Part shown: one piece after another, positions 1,620-64,000 of the stretch
How the letters are laid out: each line of letters starts with the position of its first letter
Position numbering within the stretch: position 1 is the first letter of the stretch
Origin: Hydrogenimonas cancrithermarum
GTDB taxonomy: Bacteria; Campylobacterota; Campylobacteria; Campylobacterales; Hydrogenimonadaceae
Length of the DNA: 64,000 nt
Assembly: GCF_030296055.1 (NCBI RefSeq)
Contig: NZ_AP027370.1
Coordinates: 1,724,501-1,788,500 of the forward strand
Direction: 5' to 3'
Translations under genes and position numbers: made by a program
Notes under the pieces: generated by a model
The model's input: only the letters and a program-made list of their open reading frames with translations
Database searches by the model: none
Told to the model about the DNA's origin: nothing

Positions 1620-1620
1620 T

Positions 1621-1648
1621 CCACTCAACACTCAACGCTCAGCCCTCA
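1621..1648 (-). repeat. Degenerate heptamer array at gspF stop
   Basis: Four imperfect 7-mers, on the minus strand TGAGGGC, TGAGCGT, TGAGTGT, TGAGTGG. The first unit is the end of the gspF reading frame and the next unit supplies its TGA stop. The S23-family gene starts immediately after the array. The units are the complement of those in the gspG leader on the other side of that gene. Confidence 0.85.
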
Positions 1649-11077: not shown

Positions 11078-12490
11078 ATGAGTTGGAAACGAACAATAGC
11101 CGTTTCGGCGGTGACAGCGGCTCTCGTTGTCATGACCGGATGTGGAGGCGGAGGTTCAAGCAGTAACGCGTGCGGTACGCTACCGGCGTGGACAGCAGTG
11201 AAAGCTCCGATGCAAAATTCCGAGAATGTCCAAAACGCGATGAGTACGTTGTACCACGTCGGGCTAGTCGGATCCGAACTAGTGTATGAAGGAAAAGAGG
11301 TGTCGTCGGAAGATACCACCACCGACAAGAGCGCTCTGCAGAAGCTGGCGGATCGTTTCAATGTCCTTCGAAGCGATGGCTTGGCTGCGGTGGAGAGTAT
11401 GTCGCCAAGTGGGATGGACCTGAATGGTGAATCGCATGAAGTAAACTGTAGTGTCAGTGGTACACGTACCGTGACATACGACGAAAACGAGAGTGAACAG
11501 TATGAGCTAGCGACCTATCAGTTCAATAATTGTAAGGAGTACGAGGGATTTTTAGAGGATCTGGTAGAGCAGATCGTTGCTTTTTATGGTTTGGATAGTG
11601 TGGAGAATGGTGATGGGTACGAACCCACGACCGATACCTATACGTTCAATGGGGAGATTTTGTTGAAGAAGTATTGGGGAGAGGACGCCAACAGCACATG
11701 GGATGGATACCGCATCGATGCCGACGAGTTGACCGTGAAGATGGAAAACAATGAAACACTGGACAAAGGGACATTGGATGCAACCATCTATGCGCAATTC
11801 GAAGAGAGAAAAATGGAGCGGACGGCATCCGAGCCTATCCTCCAGCTCGAGGATGCCACGGAAAGCACGACCCTCTCTCTTCTAAGCGACGGATGCCTGA
11901 GCCTGGTGGCGTATGCAGACGATGGGAATAACTCGACAATCAAAGTCGCCGACGCCAATCTGCAGGCGGTCGATTTCAATGCGACGGCAGTGAAATACAC
12001 AGTAGCGGACACAGTAGGTACAACGGTTTCGCTCGACGGCTACATCGGAACGAGTGGGTATGTGGCGTTGGCTGCAGGTATTGCAGTAGACCCTGCGCAG
12101 CAGATCGATCTGGGGGGATTCGCGCTTTACGGCGAAAACTTCGAATTCAATATCGAGAAGACGGGACTTGAAGAGAACGTGACCGTGAGCGGAACGCTCG
12201 CGACACCCTGCATGGGAGGCGCGGTCACCTACAGCGGTCAGATGAATGTCTATGCCAAGTATGATAGCCAGGATGGCAACGATAGTGCATTACCATACAC
12301 AGGCAGCGTCCTTCTTCAGGGGGCGACCAATGCGGCCGTCGATTTCAATCTCGACGAGAACAACCAGACCTACGCCACGACATCCGTAGATACGAACAAA
12401 ACCTACGGAAGTTGGGAAGCGTTGATCGAAGGCAACTGTACGGCGCTCTTCGAAGGGGTTTCCGGTTCTTCTCTTCCAGTTGGCCCTTAA
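11078..12490 (+). CDS. Large lipoprotein of unknown function
   Basis: A 470-residue predicted lipoprotein. The N-terminus MSWKRTIAVSAVTAALVVMT leads to a lipobox with the lipidated Cys at residue 22, followed by a Gly/Ser linker (GGGGSSS). The body is acidic and Thr/Asn-rich, beta-strand-like, with scattered Cys pairs. No domain is recognised. It has its own promoter (TATAAT, AAAGGATG) and ends at a convergent terminator shared with the subtilase gene. It is probably surface or periplasm-facing and may be a partner of the neighbouring secreted proteins, but nothing in the sequence proves that. Confidence 0.85.
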   Translation: MSWKRTIAVSAVTAALVVMTGCGGGGSSSNACGTLPAWTAVKAPMQNSENVQNAMSTLYHVGLVGSELVYEGKEVSSEDTTTDKSALQKLADRFNVLRSDGLAAVESMSPSGMDLNGESHEVNCSVSGTRTVTYDENESEQYELATYQFNNCKEYEGFLEDLVEQIVAFYGLDSVENGDGYEPTTDTYTFNGEILLKKYWGEDANSTWDGYRIDADELTVKMENNETLDKGTLDATIYAQFEERKMERTASEPILQLEDATESTTLSLLSDGCLSLVAYADDGNNSTIKVADANLQAVDFNATAVKYTVADTVGTTVSLDGYIGTSGYVALAAGIAVDPAQQIDLGGFALYGENFEFNIEKTGLEENVTVSGTLATPCMGGAVTYSGQMNVYAKYDSQDGNDSALPYTGSVLLQGATNAAVDFNLDENNQTYATTSVDTNKTYGSWEALIEGNCTALFEGVSGSSLPVGP

Positions 12491-12503: not shown

Positions 12504-12522
12504 GCCGTCCATTCAGGACGGC
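12504..12522. terminator. Shared convergent terminator
   Basis: Perfect 7-bp stem GCCGTCC / ATTCA / GGACGGC between two convergent genes, flanked by AAG on the left and TTTCTC on the right. The stop codon of the minus-strand subtilase gene lies inside the hairpin. The T tract is short, so termination may be moderate. Confidence 0.75.
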
Positions 12523-15646: not shown

Positions 15647-15902
15647 ATACAGATGTTAACATAATATCGTATATAAATTCAATGGTGTGCCGAAAGGGTA
15701 ACCTGGGCGAGCGTTTTGTATCCACAGAGCGATGGCGATGTCGAGGTTTCACGACGGAGAAGTCAATCCGTTGCTTTTCGTTTCATTGAAAATTTATCAT
15801 ACCTTGGATAGGATACTCCGAAAGGTGCTTCGTGTTCGGAAGCTTCGAATGGGTGAATCGCTTGCCCATTCATGGAAATTTATTGAAAGAAGGATGGGAA
15901 AA
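15647..15902. promoter_or_regulatory. Divergent promoter region, exosortase operon / large lipoprotein
   Basis: 256 bp between divergent starts. An AT-rich core at about 15640-15690 (ATAATATCGTATATAAATTC) can serve promoters both ways. The part nearer the plus-strand gene is open in the lipoprotein frame from 15732, but the first good start is at 15903. No riboswitch or other RNA was recognised in 15690-15890. Confidence 0.5.
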
Positions 15903-18900
15903 ATGGTGCGAAACAGATGGAGGCAGATGTATGGCGTCGCGTTGATGACGTCCATACTCGTTCTCGGCGGTTGTGGTGGCGGAGGCGGCGGTGGAACCGT
16001 CGCTACAGGCATCAATGGGAAAGTGGTCGACGGGTATGTGAGAGATGCCCATGTCTTCGTCGATAAAAACAAAGACAAGCTGGAGAATGTGGGCGAACCT
16101 ACGACGACGACCGACGCCAACGGCGACTTTTCGTTCGGAGTCGGCGTGGTGGCGTCGGGCGATTTCATCTATGCGTCGGGCGGTACGGACCTGGCGACGG
16201 GCCTTCCTTTCAAAGGGCGCCTCAGCGCCGTCTACGACGGAACCACTTTCATCCTTTCCCCGTTGACATCGATGGTGGCGGCGCTGGTCGAAAAGGGTGA
16301 GAGTGTCGATGGTGCGAAAAAGAGGGTCGCGCAGGCACTGGGTATCGACGAAAACAAAGTCGGTGCCGACCCGATGCAGGATGCCGACGCTTTCTTCGTT
16401 TCGCAGCAGATCGTGGCGGCAGCGCAGATCATGGGTACCGCTGCAGGCGATGTGAACGAAACGGTCTTCGAAAAGGCGGTCGAAGCGCTCGCCGAAAACG
16501 ATTTCAATCTCTCGGCGGCGGCGGAAACCTTCGCGAACGAGGTCAATGTCACGGCCGATCCTGACAAAGTGGCCGAAGCGACGGAGAGGGTGAACGCGTT
16601 CATCGGCCAGTTGAAAGAGGAGGCGAACGGAACGGTTCCCGATCTGCCGAGTTACCAGGTGGTCGCTTCGAGTGTCGCGGAACAGGTCGCCGAACAGGTT
16701 AAAAACGATGAAAATGTTACCGTCCCCGACGTCAACGATACGAAGAGCGTTCTGGAAGCGGTCACGTGTCTTACCTTCGAAAAGATCAAGGGTGCGAACG
16801 GTTCGGAAAACAATGTGACGAAAGATCTGAACCTTTCCGCGAAGAATCAATGTGAGATCGACGGAACCACCATTACATGGGATGTGGAGCCGGCGGGCGT
16901 CATCGACACGTCGACCGGTGCGCTCGATACCGTCTACAGCGATACGAACGTCGTGCTGAAAGCGGAAATCGAGAAAGGGAACGCCAATGCCGTCAAACGG
17001 TTCAACCTCTTCGTTCCCCGCAACGGCAACCATCCTCCGGTCGCAGCCGACGACAACGTGACGACACTGGAAGATACGCCTGTGACGTTCGATCCCGTCG
17101 CCAACGACACCGATCCGGACGGGGATGCATTGACGCTGGCCGAAGTGTCCGATCCGGCGCACGGTACGGTGGCGAAAAACGGAAACATCGTCGTCTATAC
17201 ACCGGATATGAACTACAACGGGACCGATACGTTCTCCTACAAAATCCGAGACGGTTGGGGTGGTGAGAGCAACGGCACGATCCATGTGACCGTGACGCCG
17301 GTCAACGATGCGCCGGTGCTGCAGCAGCCGGCGAACGTCACTATGGACGAAGACAGTGCGGCCGTTCCAGTCGATCTGAACGCGACCGATCCGGATACGG
17401 ATCCGGCGAATCTGACCTACAGCGTCGCTGTCGATCCGGCGAATATCGTGGATGTGAATCTGAGCGGCAATGTCGTGACGATCACACCATTGCCGAATAT
17501 GAATGGAACGGTGACGGTCACCGCGACGGTGAGCGATGGTGAAAACAACGATACGAAAACCTTTACCGTCACCGTCGTGAACGTTCCGGATCCGGCGGTT
17601 ATTTCCGGGGATTTTACGGGAACGGTGACGGAAGACGCAACCGCTCCGGCGACCGGAAAACTGAACGTGGCCGATCCCGATCCGGGTGAGGATCGCTTCA
17701 TCGCCGAAACCAACACGACTGGTTACGGCACCTTCTCGATCGACGAGAACGGAAGCTGGAGTTTTACGCTCGACAACGCCAGCACCGCGGTCCAGTCCCT
17801 GGCGGATGGTGAGACGCACCAGCTCTCTTTCACCGTTCAGTCATTGGATAAAACCACGAGGCAGGTGACGGTGACGATCGTGGGAGCCAACGATGCGCCG
17901 ACCGCGGAAGATCTCAACGTGACGGCGGAAGCCGGCAAGTCCGTGACGATCGATTTGAGCCAATATATCGACGATATCGACGGTGACACCCTGACCGTAA
18001 ACATCGTCGGCACCCCCACGAGCGGCCAGGCGAGTCTCGCTGGCACGACGATCACCTACACCGCACCGGCCAATGCGGGAACGGTCACGATCGTCTACCA
18101 GGTGAGCGACGGCCAGGCGACGGCGCGGGGTACGGTCACGATACAGGTTACCAATGGCAATCCGGTTTCGATGTCGACTCTCGAAGGGCAGACGATGTCC
18201 GATATCGACGACGAATATACCCGTTTCCTCTTCCAAAACGGTGTGGCGAAGATCCGTGCACAGCACTTCCTGAACGATGGCGGAATATGGGTACGCTTCG
18301 ACGTGCTCGAAGAGGAGGGTAGCTACCAGATCCATCCGGACAACAATACGACGACACTGGCGATCGAAGAGGGCAATTTCACGCTTTCCGATCTCAGGCG
18401 CGTAGAGCTCGACGGCACCACCCTGACCGTGCCGGTCGACGAAGAACACAACGTGACGGCCATTTTCGGTGCGAACGACCATCTCTACCGCATGAATTTC
18501 CATGTCGACCATGGAGTCCCCCGTCTGGAAGGGCCTTTCGACGAGTACCGCCCGTGGGTCCAGAACGCGCCGGCCCTGAACTACGATTCGCTCGAAGCCT
18601 TTATGCAGGCTTTCAGTGTCGGTGTCCAGGAACACTGGTTCGAAGCGTGGGACGAAACGACGCAGCATGGCACACCCTACGCTTTCGACAGCAACGGCAG
18701 TGGCGCCACCACAGGTTTGCTGATAAGCACGGACGACAACACGACGAGAGTGGGCACATGGACGATAGAACAAGGCGTCGTCTGGGTGAAACTCGACGCA
18801 GGCGAGGATGACTGCTGGCGCGACGCTTACGGCATCGTCGACGGGGTTCTCTACTCCGGGTATATACCGGAAACGGGATGCGACGAAGTGCTCGCCCTCT

Positions 18901-20486
18901 ACGGAAGCAATGCAACGCAGACGATTGAAGGAGCACTCCCCGTATCTGTCGGTAATGCCATTCATGCTCCCGAAGACATCGTGCCGGTAAGTGTCTCGGA
19001 TGTCAGCGGCAAGGAGATCGATATCCATATTATCGAAAAAGATCTCAATGCCACGATCAAGATGTATGATGATGGGAACTATACGCAGAGACTCAGCAAC
19101 GGGGTAAGCTTCAGCGGAACCTGGAGTATCGACAGCAACGGAACGATCCACTACACGAGAGGGAGCGAAGAGTATCTGAAAACCTTTTTCGGCCAGGTGG
19201 CTGCCGGTACGTACGGTGTGCACTATCCTGCCAATACGGACGACGTTACCGTGTTCAAAGTGCTCAATGTCAAAGATATCAACAGCGGCGGCGGTACCGG
19301 TGGTGCCGTCACGCTGATTTTGCAAGGTGCCGACTGGGCCGCTTATTCCTATTCGGACGATACATGGGAAGCGGTCGATTTCAACCAGCTTGGAACCGGC
19401 CGGACCCTTACGTTCAACGCCGATGCCGATGACAAGTACGGTGTCGCCGTCCACTGTAGCGACGCTGGCAACGAAGTGGCTATCGTTCAGGCGACCGTCG
19501 GAGAATACGCCACGATCGACATATGCGAGGAAGCGACGCGTCAGAAACATACCGTCTCCGGCACGATCAGCGGCGTCACCGGAGGAATGGTGACCGTCGG
19601 CATGGACGGTTCGTCGGATGGCAACCTAACCCTGGTTGACACGTACAACTACACGCTAGAAAACGTGACGAAAGGGGTTTTTGACCTGGTGGTGGAAGAC
19701 CTGGATATGACGACCTATACGGTCAAAAAGTTCGGCATAAAAAGAGATATCGACGTCAACGCCGATTTGGTGGGTGAAGACCTGAATCTTTCGACGGAGG
19801 GCATCGACCCCGTCGAACACAACTTCACCGTGGCCAATGGAGTCGGTGTCGCCTCTTTCATTACCGCAAACGGTTCGGCGCTCGGTATCGTCGGAATGTC
19901 CGACGACGACAGCGGTGTCCATAAATGGTATGCGGTTCCGACGACAACGACGGTGTCGGGAGATATCTACAGCTTCGTCGCCATGACGGAAAACAACACG
20001 ACGAACCAGTCCAGAATCTTGTTGGAGACAAAAGACGCCACGACATTCGCGGCGGATGTGACGACATACGATCCTACCGTTATCGAGGACTTCAATGCGA
20101 CGTTCGATTGGGGAGCCAAAGCGTTCGGCGGGCTCGACTACATCCCTTCGGCGTCGAGTCCGGAGTTGAGAATGTATGCCGCGTGGATCGAGCAGAAGAA
20201 CAGTGGTGTCGAGCGGGAGATCTGGATTTCGAAAGCGTGGCTCGGTACGGCAACTGCATATGCACTGCCCGATTTGGGCACGCTTGCCGGCTGGAACGCC
20301 GCATGGAGTTTCAATAGCGGCGATTCGGTCGAATGGTCGATTCTCGCCTTCATGGCGAACAAAGCGATCGCCGATACGGTCGAGAAGATGAGTGACACCG
20401 AAAACGAAGAGACAAACATGCCCTACTTTATGGAGAAGGACTTCACGATTCATATTGCCGAAAAACACGGGGATGTGACACCCTGA
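15903..20486 (+). CDS. Giant lipoprotein with cadherin-like / VCBS repeats
   Basis: A 1,527-residue predicted lipoprotein. The start at 15903 has GAAGGA eight bases upstream and gives the signal MVRNRWRQMYGVALMTSILV with the lipidated Cys at residue 24, then a run of Gly. Domains in order: a carboxypeptidase-regulatory-like segment (GKVVDGYVRDAHVFVDKN); a helical region to about 320; cadherin-like repeats with NDTDPDGDALTL and VNDAPV motifs (about 380-560); a VCBS-type domain (DPDPGEDRFIAETNTTGYG); a further Big_9-like repeat (NDAPTAEDLNV); then a C-terminal half rich in aromatic residues with no recognised family. It is likely a surface-exposed adhesin or matrix protein. It stands alone with its own promoter. 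Confidence 0.85.
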   Translation: MVRNRWRQMYGVALMTSILVLGGCGGGGGGGTVATGINGKVVDGYVRDAHVFVDKNKDKLENVGEPTTTTDANGDFSFGVGVVASGDFIYASGGTDLATGLPFKGRLSAVYDGTTFILSPLTSMVAALVEKGESVDGAKKRVAQALGIDENKVGADPMQDADAFFVSQQIVAAAQIMGTAAGDVNETVFEKAVEALAENDFNLSAAAETFANEVNVTADPDKVAEATERVNAFIGQLKEEANGTVPDLPSYQVVASSVAEQVAEQVKNDENVTVPDVNDTKSVLEAVTCLTFEKIKGANGSENNVTKDLNLSAKNQCEIDGTTITWDVEPAGVIDTSTGALDTVYSDTNVVLKAEIEKGNANAVKRFNLFVPRNGNHPPVAADDNVTTLEDTPVTFDPVANDTDPDGDALTLAEVSDPAHGTVAKNGNIVVYTPDMNYNGTDTFSYKIRDGWGGESNGTIHVTVTPVNDAPVLQQPANVTMDEDSAAVPVDLNATDPDTDPANLTYSVAVDPANIVDVNLSGNVVTITPLPNMNGTVTVTATVSDGENNDTKTFTVTVVNVPDPAVISGDFTGTVTEDATAPATGKLNVADPDPGEDRFIAETNTTGYGTFSIDENGSWSFTLDNASTAVQSLADGETHQLSFTVQSLDKTTRQVTVTIVGANDAPTAEDLNVTAEAGKSVTIDLSQYIDDIDGDTLTVNIVGTPTSGQASLAGTTITYTAPANAGTVTIVYQVSDGQATARGTVTIQVTNGNPVSMSTLEGQTMSDIDDEYTRFLFQNGVAKIRAQHFLNDGGIWVRFDVLEEEGSYQIHPDNNTTTLAIEEGNFTLSDLRRVELDGTTLTVPVDEEHNVTAIFGANDHLYRMNFHVDHGVPRLEGPFDEYRPWVQNAPALNYDSLEAFMQAFSVGVQEHWFEAWDETTQHGTPYAFDSNGSGATTGLLISTDDNTTRVGTWTIEQGVVWVKLDAGEDDCWRDAYGIVDGVLYSGYIPETGCDEVLALYGSNATQTIEGALPVSVGNAIHAPEDIVPVSVSDVSGKEIDIHIIEKDLNATIKMYDDGNYTQRLSNGVSFSGTWSIDSNGTIHYTRGSEEYLKTFFGQVAAGTYGVHYPANTDDVTVFKVLNVKDINSGGGTGGAVTLILQGADWAAYSYSDDTWEAVDFNQLGTGRTLTFNADADDKYGVAVHCSDAGNEVAIVQATVGEYATIDICEEATRQKHTVSGTISGVTGGMVTVGMDGSSDGNLTLVDTYNYTLENVTKGVFDLVVEDLDMTTYTVKKFGIKRDIDVNADLVGEDLNLSTEGIDPVEHNFTVANGVGVASFITANGSALGIVGMSDDDSGVHKWYAVPTTTTVSGDIYSFVAMTENNTTNQSRILLETKDATTFAADVTTYDPTVIEDFNATFDWGAKAFGGLDYIPSASSPELRMYAAWIEQKNSGVEREIWISKAWLGTATAYALPDLGTLAGWNAAWSFNSGDSVEWSILAFMANKAIADTVEKMSDTENEETNMPYFMEKDFTIHIAEKHGDVTP

Positions 20487-51179: not shown

Positions 51180-51719
51180 TCAATAGAGCCCGAAGCGTCC
51201 GTCGCTGCGGCGGTAGAGGACGCGCATTTTGCCCTCGATGTCGTTGAAGACGATGAATTGCCGATCCGGGCTCGATTTGAGGAGGTTGAGCGCCTCTTCG
51301 ATCTCGAGTGGCTTGTAGAGTTCGAGCTCCGCCGGTACGATCTCGTCGCTGTCGTCCGCGAGTGCCGCCGCGATCTCCGCTTCGTGTGCCGCGGCGAGTT
51401 CGTCCGGGCGAACCGATTTGTGCTCGGTCACTTTGTCGTGGTGGCGTCGAAGGACTTTGTGTGCACGGTCGATAGCCAAGTCGATCGCGGCGTAGACGTC
51501 TTTGTCTTTCTGGCGGATGACTACGGTATTTTTGTTCGCCATGTTGATGACGAATTCGACACTGTACCCTTTTTTGCCATTTTTCTCGTCCGCATCGATG
51601 ACGACGCGGGTGGAGATGATATCGAGATTGTATTTTTTAAGACCGTCGATAGCACTTTCAATATGGTTTTTGATGGCATCGGTCAATTCGAAATGGCGAC
51701 CTACGATGCTTATGTTCAT
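51180..51719 (-). CDS. hpf: Ribosome hibernation factor HPF, long form
   Basis: A 179-residue protein. The N-terminal S30AE domain (about 1-100: MNISIVGRHFELTDAIKNHI, then VVIRQKDKDVYAAIDLAID) is followed by a linker and the C-terminal dimerisation domain (about 120-179: EALNLLKSSPDRQFIVFNDIEGKMRVLYRRSDGRFGLY). This is the long form that pairs 70S ribosomes into 100S dimers in slow growth. AAGGAG precedes the ATG. It stands alone after the pilin genes, and the tandem small-RNA units follow it immediately. Confidence 0.95.
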   Translation of the reverse strand: MNISIVGRHFELTDAIKNHIESAIDGLKKYNLDIISTRVVIDADEKNGKKGYSVEFVINMANKNTVVIRQKDKDVYAAIDLAIDRAHKVLRRHHDKVTEHKSVRPDELAAAHEAEIAAALADDSDEIVPAELELYKPLEIEEALNLLKSSPDRQFIVFNDIEGKMRVLYRRSDGRFGLY

Positions 51720-51774: not shown

Positions 51775-52209
51775 TTAAGGCTTTTGTATGGTTCGCCGAT
51801 GAAACCGTATAGTTTCGTTGTTTTCCGGGTCGGTATACGAAACGAATGTATCGATCAAAACCGTACCGTTGCTTTCCGCCGTCGCGATGTCGTTGGCCAA
51901 AAGGTGGGACGGGTTGCATGGAAGTCCGTTGCCGATGTAGTGGAGCGACATGTTGATGTCGTAAATCGGTGCTCCCTGCGGATACCTCAGGTTGATCCGT
52001 TCGATACAGTCGATGCGGTTGTCGTGGCCCGAGATCGCCAGAAGCGCGAACTCCGTGGCGCTGCGTGCCAGAAGCTGCGCCTGCTCCTGCATGTAGATGT
52101 CGCCCGTCTGCCTCTTCGTCTGGGAAGAGAGCGAGAAGGCGAGCACCATCAGTGTCGCGACCAGCAGCATGAGAAAAATGGCCGAAAGGAGCGTAAATCC
52201 ACGGCGCAT
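51775..52209 (-). CDS. PilX/GspK-like minor pilin
   Basis: A 144-residue prepilin-like protein. The signal is RRG/FTLLSAIFLMLLVATLMV, with Gly at -1 but Ser in place of Glu at +5, as in GspK and PilX tip subunits. A helix with MQEQAQLLARSATEFALLAI follows, and Cys residues occur in DCIERINL and LPCNPSHL. Its ATG shares a base with the stop of the previous gene (TGATG). It is the last gene of the giant-protein operon. Confidence 0.75.
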   Translation of the reverse strand: MRRGFTLLSAIFLMLLVATLMVLAFSLSSQTKRQTGDIYMQEQAQLLARSATEFALLAISGHDNRIDCIERINLRYPQGAPIYDINMSLHYIGNGLPCNPSHLLANDIATAESNGTVLIDTFVSYTDPENNETIRFHRRTIQKP

Positions 52210-53135
52210 CAGAAAATCACCTTCTCTTTGCAAAAAGAGACGTTGTTGTCGTACATATGTTCCCCCACACAAAGTTTCAATCGTATCGAATCGCCCATCT
52301 GGGTAAACTTGAAGGTCGAAACATGCTCGACCATCAGGCTCGAGGAGCCGTCCGTCTCGTAGCGCTCGCCTTCCCACGGCTGGTAGTCGTAAAAGAGCGT
52401 GAGGTTGCAGTCGTTCGTAACTCCAGCCGGACACTGCGGCACGAGCGCATAGGCGCTCCACGCCAGTTTGTAATGCTCGTAGATCTCTTTCGCGGCGGTC
52501 GAGTTGAAATCCAGAAGCGTCGGGTTGGCGTCGCAGTCGTTGTCTTTGCATGAAACTTTCAGCGCATAATCGTTGTCGACATAGGGATACCATCCATAGG
52601 AGGAGACGTTGTAGTCACCGACATGTCCGTCCATGACCAGCGCAGGGTGCTGTCCTACGCCGTGTAGCGTCACGCCGTTTTGGGAAAGTGCCGAGATGAT
52701 GTCGTCGGCAAAGTCGAAACGGCTGCCCGGAGAGGAGACGCCGGATTTTCCGGTGTCGGCACTGTCGAGATCGATGAAACCGCTCCACCCCGGTGCGTTG
52801 AGCGTACCGTTCCAGGCTCCTTTGAGTGCCATGTCCGCATATCCGATCCATTCGAGAATGTGGTAGCTGTCGTCGGCGTCGCCGAGAAAGAGGTACTGGC
52901 TGAGGTTGGAATCTTTTCTGGCGATCGTACTGTCTTTGATGCGGTACTGAAGACGCCTGGCGATCTGTTCGAGTGCCAGTTCCGTCTTGGTCTGAAGCGT
53001 GTTCATCGTGCGAGCGAGAATGTAGTTGTCGTAAATCTTGACGAAGATATCGGCGCCGATCATCGAGATGATCCCGAAGATCAGGATCACCATGATCAGC
53101 TCGATCATCGTGAATGCGCGGCGTAGTGTTCTCAT
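52209..53135 (-). CDS. PilW/GspJ-like minor pilin
   Basis: A 308-residue prepilin. The signal is RRA/FTMIELIMVILIFGIISM, with Ala at -1 and Glu at +5. A long helix (LARTMNTLQTKTELALEQIARRL) and a large beta-rich domain follow, with a Cys pair in SCKDNDCDANP and one in PQCPAGVTNDCNLTL. The start at 53135 is taken since it overlaps the previous gene by 4 nt (ATGA). Size fits PilW or GspJ. It probably joins the two neighbouring pilins in a tip complex. Confidence 0.78.
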   Translation of the reverse strand: MRTLRRAFTMIELIMVILIFGIISMIGADIFVKIYDNYILARTMNTLQTKTELALEQIARRLQYRIKDSTIARKDSNLSQYLFLGDADDSYHILEWIGYADMALKGAWNGTLNAPGWSGFIDLDSADTGKSGVSSPGSRFDFADDIISALSQNGVTLHGVGQHPALVMDGHVGDYNVSSYGWYPYVDNDYALKVSCKDNDCDANPTLLDFNSTAAKEIYEHYKLAWSAYALVPQCPAGVTNDCNLTLFYDYQPWEGERYETDGSSSLMVEHVSTFKFTQMGDSIRLKLCVGEHMYDNNVSFCKEKVIF

Positions 53136-53842
53136 TCGAAAGTCCGGTGCAGAATTTTGTATTCTCCGATGTTGGAGGAGAAGGCGTAGAGGTTGATGGT
53201 CCCTTCGCTGCTCACCACCGCCGTTTTGACCATTTTGATGTTGGTCATCCGTCCGATATCGGTGTTGGGGATCGCCCAAACGGCGGGCTGGGGAGACTCG
53301 TGGTAGTTGAACGCGTCGGAGATGTAGTAGACCGTCGTGTCGATGGTGTAACCGAGTTTGTAGTCCTGCGCCTGCCCGCCTGTCAGAGAGGATGCCTGCG
53401 CGTTGAAGTCGTCGATATCGTCGAAGATCCCGCCGTCGTCGGCATCGGGCCCGAGGTTCGCAGGAAGGGTCGCGAAGGTGAGGCCGGGCGGTGAGACCCT
53501 GTAGTAGGTGAAGTCGAAGAACTTCCTTCGGTACTCGCCTTTGAAGTGCCCTTTTCTCCGGTTGGGGTCGAGCAGCGTTCTATTGAGGTCTCCCGCTCCG
53601 TTCAGGACGTCGCACACTTTGGCGAAGCCCCCGTTGAGGGTCTGGTTGGTGTCCGCCTCGTCCCAGCGGTGGCCGAGGATATTGACAAGCGTCGTGACCC
53701 CCGCCATGATACCCTCCTGCTGGATCGAAAAGGCGTTGCTGCGCTGCGTTTCGACCAGGATCAGCGGCACCGACATGAAGACGATGCCGATGACGACGAT
53801 CGAGACGATCAGCTCGATGAAGGAGAAACCGCGTCTTACCAT
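53132..53842 (-). CDS. PilV/GspI-like minor pilin
   Basis: A 236-residue prepilin with MVRRG/FSFIELIVSIVVIGIVFMS, Gly at -1 and Glu at +5. An elongated helix follows (TQRSNAFSIQQEGIMAGVTTLVN), then a domain with one Cys (KVCDVLNG). It begins 7 nt inside the end of the giant DUF11 gene, showing tight coupling to it. It is the first pilin of a set of three. Confidence 0.78.
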   Translation of the reverse strand: MVRRGFSFIELIVSIVVIGIVFMSVPLILVETQRSNAFSIQQEGIMAGVTTLVNILGHRWDEADTNQTLNGGFAKVCDVLNGAGDLNRTLLDPNRRKGHFKGEYRRKFFDFTYYRVSPPGLTFATLPANLGPDADDGGIFDDIDDFNAQASSLTGGQAQDYKLGYTIDTTVYYISDAFNYHESPQPAVWAIPNTDIGRMTNIKMVKTAVVSSEGTINLYAFSSNIGEYKILHRTFE

Positions 53843-56800
53843 TCAAGTCTCCTGTTGCTCTTCCTGCTTCCGTTCGTCTCGACCGTCTCGCCCTTCTCGC
53901 CGATGCCCGACCAGTCGTCCGTCGGGAGGTTGAACTCGACGTGGTAGTTCATGCGTCCGTCGGGGAAGAATTTGTTGTATTTGAGCCAATCCGGATGCGG
54001 ACGCAGGATGATTTTGGTTTTGTAGAGATTACTGGAGCCTCCGTACGTCACCTGTGCGGAGTAGGTGCCGTTCGTGAAGGTGGCGTTCAGATCGGCCACG
54101 GCATTGGTTCCGCCGTTGATCGTGACGAGCGGATCGTTTGCCCCCTCCTGTGTCGCGTTGAGGTCGATCACCACGTTGCGCGTGTCGTTCGTGTTGATCC
54201 ACCAGTTAACGTCGTCGGAGCTTTCCGGCAGGCCGCTGATGCCGTAATCGCCACAGGCCGCGATATCGTTGTTGCAGAAGACTTCGATGAAAATCGGCGT
54301 CTCGATCGTCGTCGTGCTGCTGCGGTAGTCGGGTGCGTGCATTCGTGCATACCAGAAACGTGCCCTGTGCCCATCGTCGAGAGGGTAGTCTGTCACGGTC
54401 TCGGGGACCTCTGTGCCGGTCGCGAGATAGTTGTCGATTTTCGCTTTTCCCGTATCGATCTGGATATCGACCGGGTAGTGCGCGTGGGTGATGGAGCGGT
54501 TGACGTCGATCAGGAACGTGACATTGGCGATGCCGTTCGTGAAGTTCGTGTCGTCGATGATGTGCAGTACGCTTTCGGGGCCCGTGCCGACGTTGGCGAG
54601 GAGTGAAACAGCGGAGTCGGTGTCGAGTTTCCAGAGCAGGTCGATACCTGCCGATTCGGCACTGCTGACATTGGCTTCGAGTGTCATGTTGACATCGTCG
54701 GCGTAACATCCGCTCGTGAAGGCTTCGGTGACATTGCCGTCGAGATTGAGAGAACGGATCACCGTTTCGACAGTGCTGTGCATCCTATTCATGTCGTCCG
54801 CCATATAGGTGAAGCCGCCACCCTGGTTCGTGACGGAGGTGTTCACTTCGATACTCGCGGGAATGAAGAGGAGTTTCGCCTCCCCTTTGATGTAACAGCT
54901 GACGTAACTGTCGTTCTGATCCTGGTCGTCGTTGTCAACGGTGGCGTTACAGTCGCCGTTCGTTCTGTCGACGTCGCTCCAGTTGGTATCCCGAAGTTTC
55001 AGTGTGACATATCCCACATCGTCGAATTTCACGTTTGGGACGGTTTGCGCGGCACCGTCGGTGAAGTTGAAGTCCTCCAGGTGGATTTTCGACGTGATAT
55101 CCGGCACACACCCCTTTTCGTCCGTAATGGCGATCGTCGCCATCGTAATGTTCGAGTCTGTGATATTGGCGGCGAAGAGCCGTTGTGTATATCCTATGGT
55201 GCGAATGGCTCCGGAGGCGTCGGTGGCATTGGCGTCGATATCGAACGGTTGGCCCGATTTTATGATCAGGTAGCTTCCGGCCGTTGCGATGCTGTTGCTG
55301 ACCGAGAAGGTGAATTTTTCCGGACGCATCGCGAAATGGTCGCCGAACGGCCCGTAGTAGCTCGGCGCCACCTGCTCTTTTACCCCTTCGTTGTCCTGGT
55401 AGCGGATCTTGTACTGGATACTGAAATAGATATCCCGCCACGCTGTCGGGAGAGAGATGTTCTTGTCGATGATCCAGCTCATACCGGTGCCGATCGGCAG
55501 GTATTCGGAGCTGAGAATCGTGAAATCCGATCGGTTGAAATCGGCGATTTCGGCATAACTGTTGTTGCCGTCGACCAGCTTGATTCTCCAGACTGTCAGG
55601 TTGACGTCGGGGTAGTTTTGCGCAAAGGTCGCGAAGGTGGTGTTGGAGTCGTCGATACTGATGTTCAGGTCGAACGCTTTGCCAACGATTTTGGTGCCGA
55701 CACTGACACGTCCCGGGTCGCGAATGTCGCTCGAAAGCGCCGTCCACTGGAAGACGACCGGCGGCGATTCGGCCGATGTACTCTCCTGCCTCTGGTCGGC
55801 GTCGGGTTTGCTGAAATATTCGAGCGTGGGGTTGGTGAAGTTGATGATCGCCTTGTTGACGAACGCCTTGTTGAGCTGTGCGAAACTGTTGACTTTGACT
55901 TTGAACTCGACCCAGCTGACGTTGAGGGCGGGGAAGGTTCCGTTGATGTCGCTGTCGTTGTAGTTGAGCCGCTCGTGCAGGTTGACCGTCAAAAGGGTAC
56001 GGTTGACATCGTCGTTGTTCGCGTAGGTCGTCGTCGTGTAGTTCAAGTCGAGCATCTGTTGGTTGGTCATCGTCTGGGCGGAGACGGCACTTGCCGGGAA
56101 GTTTTGATCCCAATGGTTCAGATGGTTGTCCGAGCCGTTGCTGTCGAGCGACGCGATATACGCTCTTCCGCTTGCGGTCAAACCGGTCGACGTGTTGAAG
56201 TAGCCTTTATCGATCAGCCACTGTTTACATTCGGCGTTTTTCGCATTGCTGCCGTCGAGAACGGGGGATCCTCCCGAACCGTCGCAGAGCCTTTCGGTAA
56301 TGGACACCACTTTCAGTTCCGCCTCGTCGGGAATGTATGTGACTTCCGCTGGAAGGGGGTCTTGCAGGATCACTTTCGTCGCGTCGGTATTGCCCGTATT
56401 GATGATGGTGATACGATAAATCACTTCTCCACCGCGCGTGACGTTGGTCTCTTCGCAGCGAACGTAGTCGCCAGTGATCGGATTTTCGACGAAACACTCT
56501 TTATAGGAGTCGATGAAGTCGGGATTGAAGATCTCCGTCGAGAGGCCGATCACCGAAGGGAAGGATTGGTCGAAGAGTTCCTGGTTCCCAACCCGTTCAC
56601 GTCCGACCGAGAGGGTGATGTTGGTCTCTCCCTGCAGGTGGCCGAGATAGATTTCGTTCGTATTGAAATCGGAAGAGATATCGAACTGGTCCATGTCGAT
56701 ACCCATACTGTAATTCAACTGTGGGTTTCTCGGTGTCAGGTAGTGGCCTGCTTGGGTGATGGTGCCGTTGAGGACATTTTCGACCGGGTTGAGAGTATCG

Positions 56801-59800
56801 GAGATGTTGACGTCGCTCGTGGTGTTGTTGTCGATTTTGACGATACTCAGGTGGTCGACGGCACGGGCCCGTTCCCCACCGCCGGCGAAGAGCAAGAGAC
56901 GGCTGTCGATCGTCTCTCCCGCATAGGGTGTCAGAAAACCGTCGATGGGAATCGTGAGTCTGTCGTACCCTACCGCTGCCGGTACAAGTTTCCTGAAGCC
57001 GTCGAAGAGGTTGATGTTTTTGTAGACCTGGTCGCGGTGGGCGCGGTGGTTGACTTCGTAGAAGACGACGAGGCTCCAGCCGCCGAAGTGGCCGATGCTG
57101 ATGGCCTGGATGGAGGTGGTGTTTCCGTCGGTGACCGTCATGAAGATCGGTTTGTCGACTCCTGTGTTGGCTTTCAGGTTTTTTACACCGTAGTTTCCGT
57201 CGTACGTTCCGAGATTTTCCCCGATCGTTTCGAGGATGTTCGTGACATCCGCGGAGCAGGCGTAGATACGTCGGTATGTATCGTACTGGGTTTTGTTGTA
57301 GTAGTAGTATGTGTCGTCGGCCGTGAGATCGTGATCGCCATCCGGAGCCGTGAACGTGATGGTTTTGTAGTCGTCGTCCGTTTCGACCGAAGTGGCGTCG
57401 CCCGGTTCGCCGTGAATGTGGCCGGTCCAGTAGAGGCGTGCATAGGTTACCGTGATATTGGTGTCGTAGGGCAGGTCGAGTTTCGCGGTGGAGGGTGAAT
57501 GTGCCGAGACGTCGATATCGGAGAGCAGGGCACTGGCGTTGGAGTCGTCACCTGTAAGGTAGGTGTTGCCGATGGCCACCAGGTCTCCGTAGCGGGTCAT
57601 GGTCTTCCGTTCGCTGAAACCGTCTTTGAGCTTGACCGTCGTGTTTCCTTCGCTGCTCCCGACGTTGACGGAGACTTCTGCATGGTTGTCGCCGTAATCC
57701 TCTTCGGCCGTCCGGGTCTGAACGTCGACACTGTTGGTGACGGTACCGTTTTGCGGCGAAGCGACCGTCAGTGTGAAATATCTGGAGCCTCCCGCTTTGA
57801 GCAATGGCAACGAAGCGGTGACGGCACTGCTGTTTGAATCGATTTGGAAGTCGTCACCCCAGTTGGAGTGGTCGTTCGATGCGATGCTCAAAACGGCCGG
57901 AACGTGGTCGGTGAGGTTGATGTCTCGGGCATCGACGGTGCTGTCGTTGGTGACGGTGATCGTATAGACGAACGGTGCGTTGAGTGCCGGTGTCGTGAGG
58001 TCGACACTCTTCGTAATTCTTAAATTGGTGCCGACCGTTTGGGTTGTGACCGACTCACTGTTATTCGAAGTGTCGTAATCGACCGGAGTGGTTACGATAG
58101 AGGTGTTGGCTTCAAGCGTTGTTATTTCGTTTGGTGCGGTAACCGTCAACTGTATGATTTCTTGCGAATCATAGAACCATGCATTGGAAAGATTGTCGTC
58201 ATCGCTGAAGTGGCAGCTATAAACATAGGATGATGAATCGAACATGCAGGATTTCCATGTCGTGCTTACATTATCCTCTACAAAAATGACGTTATTTGGC
58301 AGTTGTACTGAGAGATTCAACTCTTCTATAGGCTCGAGTGTAAGGTTGTTTACCGTAATCGTATATTGGAAATCGGATTCCACGGCTGCAGTCGGCGGAG
58401 CGCTCAGTGTAACTTCTGCGTCTACACCACAAACTGTTTCCTTTGCGCGAGTAGTTCCGTCATAATTGATATATGCTTTTTCACGTTTGTACAGTGTAGC
58501 TATGGCCGTATCGTCGAGGGCGATATTGAAGAGTTTGGCTTCATCTATGAAACCGTTGAAATATCTTCCTCCACCGGTAGTTCCGTCATGCAGGCGGGTA
58601 CCACCATTTACCGCACCTATTCCGATGGCATTTCCGTGGCCCCACAACTGGGTGCCTATGCCACTGTCGAACCTTACACCGTCCAGATAAGCCCTGAAGG
58701 CATCGTTTTGATGCGTATAGCTTCCGGCGATCGCATCGAGAACCAGGGTGACATGGTGCCACTCTCCTTCCGATATAGCCGTATGCAGATAGGTGCCCGT
58801 CCATCCAGATTCTGGTCTGTTCCAGCCACCGACATAGAGCTCTCCATCTTTTATGTAGATAGCGAGCCCCCTGGCACCGCCACCCTCTTCATAAAGCACA
58901 TGGGTTCCGGTGACTGTATCTGCATTGAACCATAGAGCCACCGTTCTTTTGTTGTGGACGGCTGTATTTATTTCTGAACTGTTGGGAATAGATATATAGT
59001 CGTTACTGCCGTCGAATTCTCCGGCGCGGTAGAACGAAACTCTTCCGTTGCTATCTTTCGTCAGGATTTTATTTACCGTGTGTGCACCGTTTTTTGCCGT
59101 TCCGTTATGGTTTCCTGTTTGGTCTACAACTGTACCCCAGGAACACTCGTCCATGCGCCATTCCGCTATCGCTTTGATCACCTTGACATCAGTAGAAGCA
59201 TCGGCACTGTTATTGGACGTGTCAGGTTCCTCTGTCGCTGTTACGGCTGAGCTATGTATACTGAGTGTCGTATCCGATGTGATATTTGGTGTCGTCAACG
59301 TTATAACGACCGTACGGTTTTCATCTGGTGATAGTCTCTCCCAGTGACATCGCACGGTCGATGCGGTGAGTGTACAGCTGGCGTTGTCGTCCACGGCTGC
59401 GAAAGTGCCCGCGGGAGAGGAGGTGAAGGTGTGGGTGACATTGACGTCGCGAGCTGTCGATATATCGATGTTTTTCACGACCATCGTGACGGTCGTGTTG
59501 TGTTCTTCGAGTACTTCGGTGTCGTCGGCAGTCAAAGAGATCTCGAGATCGGCGCCCCGTACTTCCACCTCTTCAGCCGACGCCTCCACCGGTGCGGGGA
59601 TGGAAGGGGAGTCGACCGTAATTTCGTCGGTGTATCTACCGATCTTTTTGGGTGCTTCGACATTTAGAACGAGACGGGTCGATCCGCTGTAACCGGCGAG
59701 TGAGGGAAGTTCACACACCACGGTATGGTTTCCATCGCCCGGTGTGCAGTTCCAACCTGCGTCACTGCCGTTGTTGCCGACATAGATGAAGCCTGTCGGG

Positions 59801-62800
59801 AGTGTGTCGGAGATGTTGATATCTTCCGCTTCGTTTTTGCCGGTGTTGACGATGGTGACAACATAGTCGAAAAGCTCGTCGAAGGCTAGGGTTGTTTTCG
59901 AAACATTGACATCGACATTGAACCGGCTCCCTTCCACTTTGACATAAGCGCTGTCGGTGTTGTTGGTGTTATCGGTTTCGACCGTTGTGTTCACGACGCG
60001 AGCGTCGTTGTTTATGATACCTTCGACGCCCGGTGTTTTCGCTTTGACGACGACGCTGAGGGTTTCGCCTTGCAGCAGTTCGTTGCGGATACATTGGAGG
60101 TTGTGGCCGTTGATGGCGCAGGTACCGTTCCATCCGCTTTGCGAGGAGATGGTCAGATTGCTGAAACCGGTGTTGAAATCATCCATCAGATTGATGAAGT
60201 GTGCCAGACCGAGTTCCCGGTTTTCGACCGTGATGTTGAACTCCACATATTTGTTGAGGCCCGCCGTGACGTTGCTCTCGTCGTAACCCGGATTTTCGAG
60301 GTCCTGCACGTACTTTTCGATTTTCAGGTCGGCACCCTTGACGGTCGTGGTGGGATTTGGCGAAATGGTCTCCTGGGTTATCTGTCCCGATCCGTCGGTA
60401 CCTTCAACATGGACGGTGTAGCTGACCACTTCGTTGGCGTTGGGTGCGGTGGCGTGGATTTCGACTCTCGAGGTGGCGTTGTTGGGTGCCAGTGTGGCGA
60501 GACGGCAAGTCAGGAGCGAGGATGCGGAGTCGAAATGGCAGTTCCAGCCGCTGTCTCCACCCGTCGAGGTGACATTGAACTCTTCGGAGTATCCCGATGG
60601 GAATTGCATGGTCAGGTTGATGTCGCGGGCTTCCGAGTGGCCGCGGTTGATGACGGTGATGGTGTAGTCGATGGGCTTCAATGCCCCGACCGGATTGGGA
60701 GATTGTTGGAAAGGGTTGTTGGCGAAGCCCACTTCGGCACCTTCGATCTCCGTGTCGAAGTCGGAAATGTTGGGCCGGTTCGTTTCGGCTGTGGTGGTGG
60801 TCGCCACGGCACGGTTGCGGATGGTTCCGGTATAGCCTGGGGCGATCGCATAGATGGTGAAGGATGCCGAACCATTGGCCGGCAGCGTGCTGCTATAGTC
60901 ACAACTCACATTGTGGTCGGATGTGGCGCTGTTGTCGACGCATGTCCAGCCACTGCCGCCCAGGGCCCTGTTCCATGTGGCGGAGAGGTTGACATCGGTA
61001 TGGAGGATGTCGTCCACGTGGATGCCTGCCGCCGGTACACTGCTGTTGTTCTCCACCCGGATGGTGTAGGCGAGTTCGTCACCCATTCCTGCCGTGGCAG
61101 GCCCGGTTTTGGTCACGACGATGTCCGTGCCGACGATACGGGTGCCGAGTGTGTCGCCGTTGTCGAGGAGCAGTCGTTCCAGTTCGGGCGTCGATGTGGT
61201 GACGTTGGCTTCGTTGGTAAGTGTGATTCCCGTATCGTTGGGTGCCGCGACGGTGATGTCGATCGATGAAGGTGTATTGGAAGGAGGAAGATTTCCGCCG
61301 TAGGCACAGGTGACGGTTCCACCGCTTTCGTTACAGTTCCAGTTCGCACCGCTGGCGGAGACGAACGTCACACCTGTCGGAAGGATGTCCGTGACGGTGA
61401 TGCCCGCTGCACCGCTCGATGGCACGTCGTGTGCCGGTGGCGTTCCTGTGTAGGTATCGGGCCTTGGGTAGTTGCGTACATCGAGTGTGTAGGTAAATCG
61501 CTGCTCGGCACCCGCTTCGCGAGGCCCTCTTTTATCCACCGAAACATTGGCCCCGCGTACGAGCGTGTTGGTATGAAGATAGCCGTCTCCGCCCGTTGGT
61601 GCGTTGTTGGCGAGGTGTTGATCGGTGAGCGAAGTCTCCGCTTTGTAACGATTGACGACGAAGTTGTTGTTTTCGTCGTTCACATCGAAGCTGGCTGCAT
61701 CGATCACGGTCACGGTGATCGTCGCGACATTCCTCGTCTGGCCTCGAGAGAGTACGACTCCCCCATTCATCGTGCAAAGGAGTGTCGAACCCGCTGTCGT
61801 GGGGTTGTTGCAGGTGAAGTTGGCTGCCGGTGTGACGGAGACGTTCGTGACGTTGGATGGAATGAGGTCGGTGACATTGACGTCCGTGATATCCAGGTCG
61901 ACTTGGGAAACATTCCTCACCTGCAGGGTGTAGGTGATCGTTTCGCCGATGGCGGCGTAATTTTCGGCAGCACCGTAATTCACACCGTTGATGAGCTTTC
62001 GGACCGCGAGGTCGATATCGATCACTTCGGTTCTGGCGGTATAGGTGTTGTTGGCAAGATTCGATTCGGAGGTATCGGTTTCTGTCGTGACGGTATTGTA
62101 GACCCAGTCGTGTGCGGGACCGGCTTTGACTCTGAAAGTGACGATGTTTTCGTCGTATCCGTTTGGAATTTCAAAATTGGGATCGTTGGTTTGGCAATGG
62201 ATGTCCGATCCGCTGATACTGCATGTCCAGGCACTGCTCAAAGTACTCAAAGAGCCCGTGACGTAAGTGACGTTTGCAGGAACCGTATCGTTGATTTCAG
62301 CTCCAAATGCGGAAGAGCGTCCCTGGTTTCTAAGAGAAATAGTGTATTGATACTCGGAATTTCCGGCGACTCTTAGAGGTGCCGCTTTGTATATGACGAG
62401 GTCGGCTCCCTCGACATGCAGCAGGGCGTCGTCGCTGTTGTTGGTCGTATCGGCCTCCGGAGTCGATGTGGAGACGGTGGCGGTATTGGTATAGTCGCCG
62501 TTCGTATTGGGTGCATTCGCTGTAATGGTGAAAGTTTTCGATCCATTGGTATTTGCGATGGTTCCGAGCTGGCACGTGACGGTTCGGCCCGAAACGGCGA
62601 AGCCGTCGTTGTCGCATCCGCTTGTGGATATGGTGGTGAACCCATCGGGTAGTGTATCGGTCACGTTGGTATCTTCCGCATCCGCCAGGCCGCTGTTGCC
62701 GACGTCGATCGTGAAGGTTACCCGCTCTCCGAGTCCCACGGTGCCCGGAGAGACGCTTTTCGAGATGGTCAGTTCCGCGCCGCGGATCGTGACGGGTGCG

Positions 62801-64000
62801 ACTTTGGAATTGGTCGTAGCCGTATCGGACTCGGCCGTATCGTTGCTTACGTCGACGCGGTTGCTGCGTTGTTGATCGAGGACGCTCGTGGTGTTCGGTG
62901 CCGTGGCGTCCACCGTTACGTTGGATGTACTCTGGCCGCTGGCAAGATCGTGTTTATAGGTACAGTCGAATCCTGCCGGGAAGTTGGTTGTACAGCTCCA
63001 GTCGACAAAGTTGTAGCTTAGGTTTGAAAGAGAGAGTCCGTCCGTATTTTCCACGACGCTGTCACTGAGTGTGATATTCGTCGCTACGGCGTCTCCCTGG
63101 TTTTTCAGCGAAATCGTGTAGGTTACCGTTTTCCCCACGGCCACTTCATTCACATTCGGCACCTTGTCGACGATGAGATCCGCTCCTTTGATTTCGATCC
63201 ACCAATTTTTTTCATCGTTCGACGTTGTGCTTTGTGTCGTAGATGTTACAGCGGTCGCCGTATTCTTTATTTTTTTATGCCCCGGGAAATTGCTGTCGTA
63301 ATTGGGCGCCGTGGCACGAATGGCGACAGTGGCTGACCCATTTTTCGCAAGATCGCCCAATTGGCACGTGAAGGGCTCCGTGACCGATGTGAAAGAGCCG
63401 GTTCCACAATCGGTTTCGATGTCGGTGAAATTGGCGATATTGTTGGCGTTCAGGTCGATGGTGACATTGACATCTTTCGCGATGGCACTGCCGTTGTTGG
63501 TGACGACGACGTTGACGTTCACCCGTTCGTTCGCGATACCTACCCTATCTCCGCTTTTCGTTACGACGATATCGGCCCCTTCGATTTCAGTGGAGGCCGT
63601 GGTGGATGTTTTGTCGTAAGCATCGGGTGAGTCGACATGGACGGTTGCGTAATTATGGACCGTTCCCAGTGGGGCGTTGACGGGAACGGCGACGCTGAAT
63701 TTAATCGTCGTTGTCGCTCCTTCGGACGCCAGTGTGCCGAGGCTGCAAGAGAGGGTATCCGTTCCGATGGAGCCGCTACAGTTCCAGCCGTCGCTTTGTG
63801 AGATCGAGCTTATCGTATAGCCGCTTCCGAGCCGTGCTCCCATGTCGTCCGTCAGTGTCAATGTCTTGGCATCGGTAAGCGACGTATTCTTGATGGTGAT
63901 TTCATAGTCGATCGTGCCTCCGGCAACTGCCGTGGCAGAGGCGATTTTGGTCACTTCGAGTTCGACACCGGTGACGGTGATATCTGCCGTATCCTCTCCG
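53836..64000 (-). CDS. Giant DUF11-repeat surface protein with LamG domain, N-terminus outside window
   Basis: The frame is open to the right edge, so over 3,380 residues are visible. About 14 DUF11-type modules can be counted, each opening like GADLVVTK or GAELTISK, with LxN(xG) strands and a W(N/S/T)C Cys pattern. Between the twelfth and thirteenth is a LamG/concanavalin-like domain (about 58450-59150; GEFDGSNDYISIPNSSE, EWHHVTLVLDAI). After the last module comes a unique 1,300-residue C-terminal region with another DUF11-like piece. No cell-wall anchor or barrel is seen at the C-terminus (SNRRLEW). Tight coupling to three minor pilins suggests a surface or pilus-tip adhesin. The LamG segment is more AT-rich than its surroundings. 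Confidence 0.88.
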   Translation of the reverse strand, partial: GEDTADITVTGVELEVTKIASATAVAGGTIDYEITIKNTSLTDAKTLTLTDDMGARLGSGYTISSISQSDGWNCSGSIGTDTLSCSLGTLASEGATTTIKFSVAVPVNAPLGTVHNYATVHVDSPDAYDKTSTTASTEIEGADIVVTKSGDRVGIANERVNVNVVVTNNGSAIAKDVNVTIDLNANNIANFTDIETDCGTGSFTSVTEPFTCQLGDLAKNGSATVAIRATAPNYDSNFPGHKKIKNTATAVTSTTQSTTSNDEKNWWIEIKGADLIVDKVPNVNEVAVGKTVTYTISLKNQGDAVATNITLSDSVVENTDGLSLSNLSYNFVDWSCTTNFPAGFDCTYKHDLASGQSTSNVTVDATAPNTTSVLDQQRSNRVDVSNDTAESDTATTNSKVAPVTIRGAELTISKSVSPGTVGLGERVTFTIDVGNSGLADAEDTNVTDTLPDGFTTISTSGCDNDGFAVSGRTVTCQLGTIANTNGSKTFTITANAPNTNGDYTNTATVSTSTPEADTTNNSDDALLHVEGADLVIYKAAPLRVAGNSEYQYTISLRNQGRSSAFGAEINDTVPANVTYVTGSLSTLSSAWTCSISGSDIHCQTNDPNFEIPNGYDENIVTFRVKAGPAHDWVYNTVTTETDTSESNLANNTYTARTEVIDIDLAVRKLINGVNYGAAENYAAIGETITYTLQVRNVSQVDLDITDVNVTDLIPSNVTNVSVTPAANFTCNNPTTAGSTLLCTMNGGVVLSRGQTRNVATITVTVIDAASFDVNDENNNFVVNRYKAETSLTDQHLANNAPTGGDGYLHTNTLVRGANVSVDKRGPREAGAEQRFTYTLDVRNYPRPDTYTGTPPAHDVPSSGAAGITVTDILPTGVTFVSASGANWNCNESGGTVTCAYGGNLPPSNTPSSIDITVAAPNDTGITLTNEANVTTSTPELERLLLDNGDTLGTRIVGTDIVVTKTGPATAGMGDELAYTIRVENNSSVPAAGIHVDDILHTDVNLSATWNRALGGSGWTCVDNSATSDHNVSCDYSSTLPANGSASFTIYAIAPGYTGTIRNRAVATTTTAETNRPNISDFDTEIEGAEVGFANNPFQQSPNPVGALKPIDYTITVINRGHSEARDINLTMQFPSGYSEEFNVTSTGGDSGWNCHFDSASSLLTCRLATLAPNNATSRVEIHATAPNANEVVSYTVHVEGTDGSGQITQETISPNPTTTVKGADLKIEKYVQDLENPGYDESNVTAGLNKYVEFNITVENRELGLAHFINLMDDFNTGFSNLTISSQSGWNGTCAINGHNLQCIRNELLQGETLSVVVKAKTPGVEGIINNDARVVNTTVETDNTNNTDSAYVKVEGSRFNVDVNVSKTTLAFDELFDYVVTIVNTGKNEAEDINISDTLPTGFIYVGNNGSDAGWNCTPGDGNHTVVCELPSLAGYSGSTRLVLNVEAPKKIGRYTDEITVDSPSIPAPVEASAEEVEVRGADLEISLTADDTEVLEEHNTTVTMVVKNIDISTARDVNVTHTFTSSPAGTFAAVDDNASCTLTASTVRCHWERLSPDENRTVVITLTTPNITSDTTLSIHSSAVTATEEPDTSNNSADASTDVKVIKAIAEWRMDECSWGTVVDQTGNHNGTAKNGAHTVNKILTKDSNGRVSFYRAGEFDGSNDYISIPNSSEINTAVHNKRTVALWFNADTVTGTHVLYEEGGGARGLAIYIKDGELYVGGWNRPESGWTGTYLHTAISEGEWHHVTLVLDAIAGSYTHQNDAFRAYLDGVRFDSGIGTQLWGHGNAIGIGAVNGGTRLHDGTTGGGRYFNGFIDEAKLFNIALDDTAIATLYKREKAYINYDGTTRAKETVCGVDAEVTLSAPPTAAVESDFQYTITVNNLTLEPIEELNLSVQLPNNVIFVEDNVSTTWKSCMFDSSSYVYSCHFSDDDNLSNAWFYDSQEIIQLTVTAPNEITTLEANTSIVTTPVDYDTSNNSESVTTQTVGTNLRITKSVDLTTPALNAPFVYTITVTNDSTVDARDINLTDHVPAVLSIASNDHSNWGDDFQIDSNSSAVTASLPLLKAGGSRYFTLTVASPQNGTVTNSVDVQTRTAEEDYGDNHAEVSVNVGSSEGNTTVKLKDGFSERKTMTRYGDLVAIGNTYLTGDDSNASALLSDIDVSAHSPSTAKLDLPYDTNITVTYARLYWTGHIHGEPGDATSVETDDDYKTITFTAPDGDHDLTADDTYYYYNKTQYDTYRRIYACSADVTNILETIGENLGTYDGNYGVKNLKANTGVDKPIFMTVTDGNTTSIQAISIGHFGGWSLVVFYEVNHRAHRDQVYKNINLFDGFRKLVPAAVGYDRLTIPIDGFLTPYAGETIDSRLLLFAGGGERARAVDHLSIVKIDNNTTSDVNISDTLNPVENVLNGTITQAGHYLTPRNPQLNYSMGIDMDQFDISSDFNTNEIYLGHLQGETNITLSVGRERVGNQELFDQSFPSVIGLSTEIFNPDFIDSYKECFVENPITGDYVRCEETNVTRGGEVIYRITIINTGNTDATKVILQDPLPAEVTYIPDEAELKVVSITERLCDGSGGSPVLDGSNAKNAECKQWLIDKGYFNTSTGLTASGRAYIASLDSNGSDNHLNHWDQNFPASAVSAQTMTNQQMLDLNYTTTTYANNDDVNRTLLTVNLHERLNYNDSDINGTFPALNVSWVEFKVKVNSFAQLNKAFVNKAIINFTNPTLEYFSKPDADQRQESTSAESPPVVFQWTALSSDIRDPGRVSVGTKIVGKAFDLNISIDDSNTTFATFAQNYPDVNLTVWRIKLVDGNNSYAEIADFNRSDFTILSSEYLPIGTGMSWIIDKNISLPTAWRDIYFSIQYKIRYQDNEGVKEQVAPSYYGPFGDHFAMRPEKFTFSVSNSIATAGSYLIIKSGQPFDIDANATDASGAIRTIGYTQRLFAANITDSNITMATIAITDEKGCVPDITSKIHLEDFNFTDGAAQTVPNVKFDDVGYVTLKLRDTNWSDVDRTNGDCNATVDNDDQDQNDSYVSCYIKGEAKLLFIPASIEVNTSVTNQGGGFTYMADDMNRMHSTVETVIRSLNLDGNVTEAFTSGCYADDVNMTLEANVSSAESAGIDLLWKLDTDSAVSLLANVGTGPESVLHIIDDTNFTNGIANVTFLIDVNRSITHAHYPVDIQIDTGKAKIDNYLATGTEVPETVTDYPLDDGHRARFWYARMHAPDYRSSTTTIETPIFIEVFCNNDIAACGDYGISGLPESSDDVNWWINTNDTRNVVIDLNATQEGANDPLVTINGGTNAVADLNATFTNGTYSAQVTYGGSSNLYKTKIILRPHPDWLKYNKFFPDGRMNYHVEFNLPTDDWSGIGEKGETVETNGSRKSNRRLEW

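Follow-up and report, generated by a model that had tools for sequence, protein, structure and literature searches.

In a vent-dwelling Hydrogenimonas, four overlapping genes, one encoding a giant exported protein and three encoding minor prepilins, probably form an MshQ-D-O-P tip module; the MSHA-type pilus to which it would belong has its machine encoded elsewhere on the chromosome. This identification follows from the DUF6701 homology of the large protein together with the pairing of the three pilins with MshD, MshO and MshP. Judged from its sequence, the giant belongs to the MshQ (DUF6701) family; its own similarity is remote, and membership runs through other family members and a profile match to the MshQ of A. 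caviae. What is new here is a probable MSHA tip module that is unlinked from its machine and carries a giant MshQ. The stretch of DNA analysed, called the window below, comprises 64,000 nucleotides (G000:C1:1724501-1788500) of a 2.38-Mb genome.

A giant gene and three overlapping prepilin genes

Inside the window, the large gene appears as an open frame (53836-63999, minus strand, 3,387 aa) that has no start codon there. With the flanking DNA, the full gene was recovered at G000:C1:1778336-1790446 (window 53836-65946) and was found to encode 4,036 aa. The N-terminus of the protein, MATSNRLFRHFFRVFLISTLLSATVVFAGSS, was judged by eye to be a Sec-type leader. Pfam matched DUF11 at 20 places in the complete protein and at 15 in the part within the window, with a single LamG in both cases. 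The gene shares its final 7 nt (ATGGTGA), stop codon included, with the PilV-like gene, which starts with ATG at 53842; an earlier note made from the sequence had described this overlap for a protein of more than 3,380 residues. The PilV- and PilW-like genes overlap by 4 nt, and the PilW- and PilX-like genes by 1 nt; the starts of the latter two were set by their prepilin motifs, and the ORF list over-extends both. The PilX-like prepilin lacks Glu5 (GFTLLS), as is expected of cap pilin subunits (review PMC10191384), and weakly matches the N-terminus of GspK. The neighbouring hpf is probably not part of the module's function.

Table 1. Features of the module and of related systems (window positions unless stated otherwise; kb values refer to the chromosome)
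Feature	Position	Strand	Remarks
MshQ-type giant protein, 4,036 aa	53836..64000 in window, start at 65946 beyond it	-	DUF6701-type C-terminus
LamG of giant protein	residues 2312-2483		
Conserved middle domain of giant protein	residues about 2801-3143		
C-terminal 620 aa of giant protein	53839..55698	-	conserved, 148/298 genomes; DUF6701/MshQ homologue
Last 25 residues, WxGxG...NRRxEW (own tail NRRLEW)	53839..53913	-	proposed docking tail
MshD/PilV-like minor prepilin, 236 aa	53132-53842	-	N_methyl/TIGR02532 match
MshO/PilW-like minor prepilin, 308 aa	52209-53135	-	N_methyl/TIGR02532 match; start within listed ORF
MshP/PilX-like minor prepilin, 144 aa	51775-52209	-	start within listed ORF
hpf (hibernation-promoting factor)	51180..51719	-	conserved neighbour downstream
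Complete T2SS	1 to about 9300	-	third secretin; ~45 kb from module
MSHA operon mshI-J-K-L-M-N-E-G	304.6-314.0 kb		unlinked to module
Second MshL-like cluster	1073-1084 kb		secretin 222 bits, below equivalog cut-off

The giant protein itself gave no direct match to PF20419 (DUF6701). Likewise, hmmscan with Pfam found no match in the C-terminus and missed DUF6701 for single family members, probably because of its speed filters. On the other hand, a genome search with PF20419 brought several family members above the cut-off, in the same C-terminal region and with up to 84 bits. The DUF6701 reference was an Aeromonas caviae chromosome, filed among plasmids, in which the MSHA locus runs mshL, M, E, G, pilins, D, O, P, Q and then mreB. 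As mshQ is interrupted by insertion elements in this strain, only its intact C-terminal piece was compared; almost the whole DUF6701 model is matched by this piece (positions 11-577 of 577; E 6e-99). The Campylobacterota family profile matched A. caviae MshQ with E 9.5e-6 over 178 columns in hhalign and with E 3e-5 in hmmsearch, the best of 500 shuffles reaching 0.63. Concerning the pilins, profile comparison placed the PilV-like protein with MshD (E 1.5e-11) and the PilX-like protein with MshP (E 2.4e-6), in both cases ahead of every other pilin tested. The PilW-like protein gave its longest alignment with MshO (73 columns), its profile score being similar for MshA. All three were closer to MshD, MshP and MshO than to GspI, GspK and GspJ, respectively.

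No PilY1 (PF05567) was found in this genome or in any of the 298 genomes of the class, and the giant protein contains no PF05567 domain. A. baumannii and A. caviae served as positive controls, PilY1 being detected in both by the same search, and we therefore rejected a PilY1 hidden elsewhere in the genome. The earlier suggestion that a large protein occupies the place of PilY1 stands.

Distribution, display array and C-terminal tail

With the C-terminal 1,127 aa as query, matches were obtained in 53 of the 298 genomes; a profile built on the final 620 aa extended this to 148 genomes, representing 35 of 58 genera. We inspected 60 loci, of which 54 were of the window-protein type and six encoded paralogous proteins ending in VFR, LFR or IFR. 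In 44 of the 54, spread over many genera, the large gene is directly followed by the three pilin genes. The four-gene order, which the earlier note had proposed to look for in relatives, is therefore a conserved arrangement. Ten loci lack the adjacent trio, and some orthologues (L089, L112, L113 and L122, for example) have no neighbouring pilin genes. The module is present in all five Hydrogenimonas genomes. In some loci the MshQ-type gene is repeated in tandem or close by (three copies in L113, two each in L098 and L124), as if display variants were kept side by side. Searches of plasmids and phages with the C-terminus gave no convincing relatives.

The proteins of this family usually have 1,200-1,900 aa, typically about 1,300 aa. 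Among the inspected loci, forms above 4,000 aa occurred only in this genome, in its congener G074 and in G061, a member of another family. DUF11 and LamG are optional decorations that most orthologues do without, and expansion into a DUF11 array is rare. Residues 400-1600 of the giant share 42-66% identity with G061 and 29-42% with the congener G074, whereas residues 3400-4036 share 44-83% with G074 and 24-42% with G061. As the array is closer to G061 and the anchor closer to G074, these comparisons fit an exchange of the display part between families and vertical inheritance of the anchor. Once the neighbouring hpf is corrected for, the divergence of the C-terminus still tracks that of the three pilins, with a partial r of about 0.5.

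In the AlphaFold2 model (mean pLDDT 77), the C-terminus consists of beta-sandwich domains in a row. Sequence searches found no relatives of the C-terminus among solved structures, and Foldseek with the C-terminus and the middle domain returned generic beta-sandwich matches alone, with low TM-scores. The last 25 residues mostly have pLDDT below 50 and are predicted to be disordered, yet they are among the most conserved. Of 54 proteins, 53 retain the terminal Trp, among them ones without an adjoining pilin gene, and we therefore rejected the idea that it is a mere by-product of the gene overlap. Conservation of the tail, combined with its predicted disorder when modelled alone, suggests that the NRRxEW tail is a peptide that may fold and dock on the minor pilins; as the alignment is shallow, we take this as a lead.

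We also counted D/E-x-N-x-S/T sequons in the MshQ-type proteins (L061-L130). They were 7.6 times as frequent as expected (1,318 seen, 174 expected), and the mirror motif was not enriched (125); the enrichment is missing in genus group g3. The excess of the sequon and not of its mirror suggests PglB-type N-glycosylation of these proteins, a modification known in vent relatives (PMC6025236). Besides the giant (53836-64000), the enrichment concerns a 1,584-aa Big_9/cadherin-like protein and a lipoprotein encoded in the window (15732-20486 and 11078-12490). A Kelch-repeat subtilase that seems to carry a signal peptide is also encoded in the window (12516-15152, minus strand).

Pilus machines and competing explanations

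The genome encodes three secretins. The one at 309789-311345 scored 262 bits, above the MshL equivalog cut-off of 250 bits, and its operon contains an AAA ATPase, a GspE/PilB-type protein and a GspF-type protein in MSHA order. The operon has no pilins, and its order I-J-K-L-M-N-x-E-G is kept in six other genomes checked, x sometimes being missing. The genes mshL, mshM, mshE and mshG are all present; they are the mandatory genes of MSH systems, with mshA as a loner, according to Denise et al. 2019 (PMC6668835), in which MSH-type machines with unlinked mshA are already known from Epsilonproteobacteria. Three major-type pilins at 977-979 kb are candidates for MshA. Because the module never adjoins the MSHA machine in the inspected loci, their partnership rests on co-occurrence. 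The MshL query detected a secretin in 145 of the 148 family-bearing genomes (raw counts that ignore kinship). More telling than such whole-sample tables are genomes with the module, a single detectable secretin of the MshL type and no T2SS match, which number at least 12 in the Sulfurospirillum group and about 9 in family f8.

The earlier note had also proposed that a surface protein is secreted by the type II route and assembled on a dedicated pseudopilus; the three pilins would then add a further pseudopilus tip to the T2SS in the window and expel the giant as a substrate. The complete T2SS in the same window, the weak match of the PilX-like protein to GspK and a somewhat higher frequency of T2SS in family-bearing genomes (47 of 148, against 22 of 150 others, again raw counts that ignore kinship) would agree with this. 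However, this T2SS possesses its own G-H-I-J-K pseudopilins, and the pilins of the module lie closer to the MSHA subunits. Since most module-bearing genomes have no T2SS (its secretin is missing from 101 of the 148), we disfavour this route and consider it highly improbable. In the T2SS cluster itself, a gene for a 23S rRNA intervening-sequence (four-helix) protein was observed between gspF and gspG (window 1263-1631). Both listed frames, those of GspG and GspH, start with HSTLNTQHSTL, a repeat peptide suggestive of an intergenic element that was pulled into the reading frame (L027 10670-11767, G000:C1:1724669-1725766).

The module might work with the second MshL-like machine, or with both, rather than with the MSHA operon alone; this seems unlikely, though less so than secretion by the T2SS. 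In the congeners G074 and G125, the second machine has its own MshQ-type protein and pilins; this genome is without them, and the module of the window could therefore stand in. The cluster concerned (L025) has no VFR/LFR-type MshQ-like protein and pilins, unlike those of G074 and G125 (L097 and L158) beside rsmE, and this tip set was apparently lost here. Against such a role, the tip protein of the second machine, where present, lies within about 6 kb of it and ends in VFR or LFR, not EW, and the single detectable secretin of about 20 module-bearing genomes is of the first type. Mere chance neighbourhood, with the surface protein and the pilins acting independently, would accommodate the orthologues that have no adjacent pilins, but the overlapping genes, the correlated divergence of anchor and pilins and a homologue encoded beside mshD-O-P in Aeromonas all speak against it. 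The conserved gene order (44 of 54 loci) counts against it as well, and we give this explanation almost no credence, the least of all those considered.

An MshQ-D-O-P tip module working with the MSHA machine would operate as follows. The MshD-, MshO- and MshP-like pilins would together prime the pilus as a minor-pilin complex capped by the MshP-like subunit, which lacks Glu5. The 4,036-aa MshQ-type protein would be exported by Sec, dock on the minor pilins through its C-terminal tail and be pushed outward via the MshL secretin, so that the Ig-like DUF11 chain and LamG would be displayed at the tip as a probable adhesin. The machine used would be the unlinked operon mshI-J-K-L-M-N-E-G. A broader picture, which we put forward tentatively and with some doubt, is that PilY1-independent tip adhesins form a class widespread in Campylobacterota, in which the short NRRxEW peptide at the C-terminus fixes interchangeable display modules to the MshD-O-P minor pilins. 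In Hydrogenimonas and in a single lineage of the Sulfurospirillum family, the display part would then have grown into a fibre of DUF11 domains, by our estimate ~100 nm long and possibly N-glycosylated; its array would be exchanged between families, the anchor staying with its pilins.

Comparison with known systems

MshQ, or DUF6701, has no assigned function, and the V. cholerae table consulted gives none for MshQ. Half of the class has this gene-pilin unit, in which the tail is conserved and the front exchangeable; the idea of MshQ as the tip adhesin of MSHA pili, a counterpart of PilY1, can therefore be tested directly. If true, it would also account for the pilus tip in those Campylobacterota where PilY1 was not found.

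The closest known system is mshD-mshO-mshP-mshQ of the MSHA pilus in Vibrio and Aeromonas, which likewise combines overlapping D, O and P prepilin genes with a large exported DUF6701 protein; the MshL-M-N-E-G machine is also present in this genome. The order is Q-D-O-P here and D-O-P-Q there, the module is unlinked from its machine, and MshQ has 4,036 aa, 20 DUF11 and its own tail NRRxEW. The alternative tip adhesin of the earlier note therefore stands as regards the position of PilY1, but it is not a new type, being the MshQ known beside mshD-mshO-mshP. The portion of the study on MSH systems available to us (PMC6668835) describes neither this tip module nor its MshQ-type protein or the giant form. 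PilY1/PilC with PilV-PilW-PilX of type IVa pili is also a large exported protein encoded with capping minor pilins, and the role of the giant is likely the same as that of PilY1; the giant, however, has no PF05567 and its C-terminal family is unrelated. The GspI-J-K pseudopilins of the T2SS are of a homologous minor-pilin class with a cap subunit lacking Glu5, but the genome has a separate T2SS set and the profile match is weaker than that to MshD, MshO and MshP. Surface proteins with DUF11 and LamG share the repeated Ig-like DUF11 and the LamG module and are usually free or wall-bound, whereas here the array is fused to a pilus-type C-terminus.
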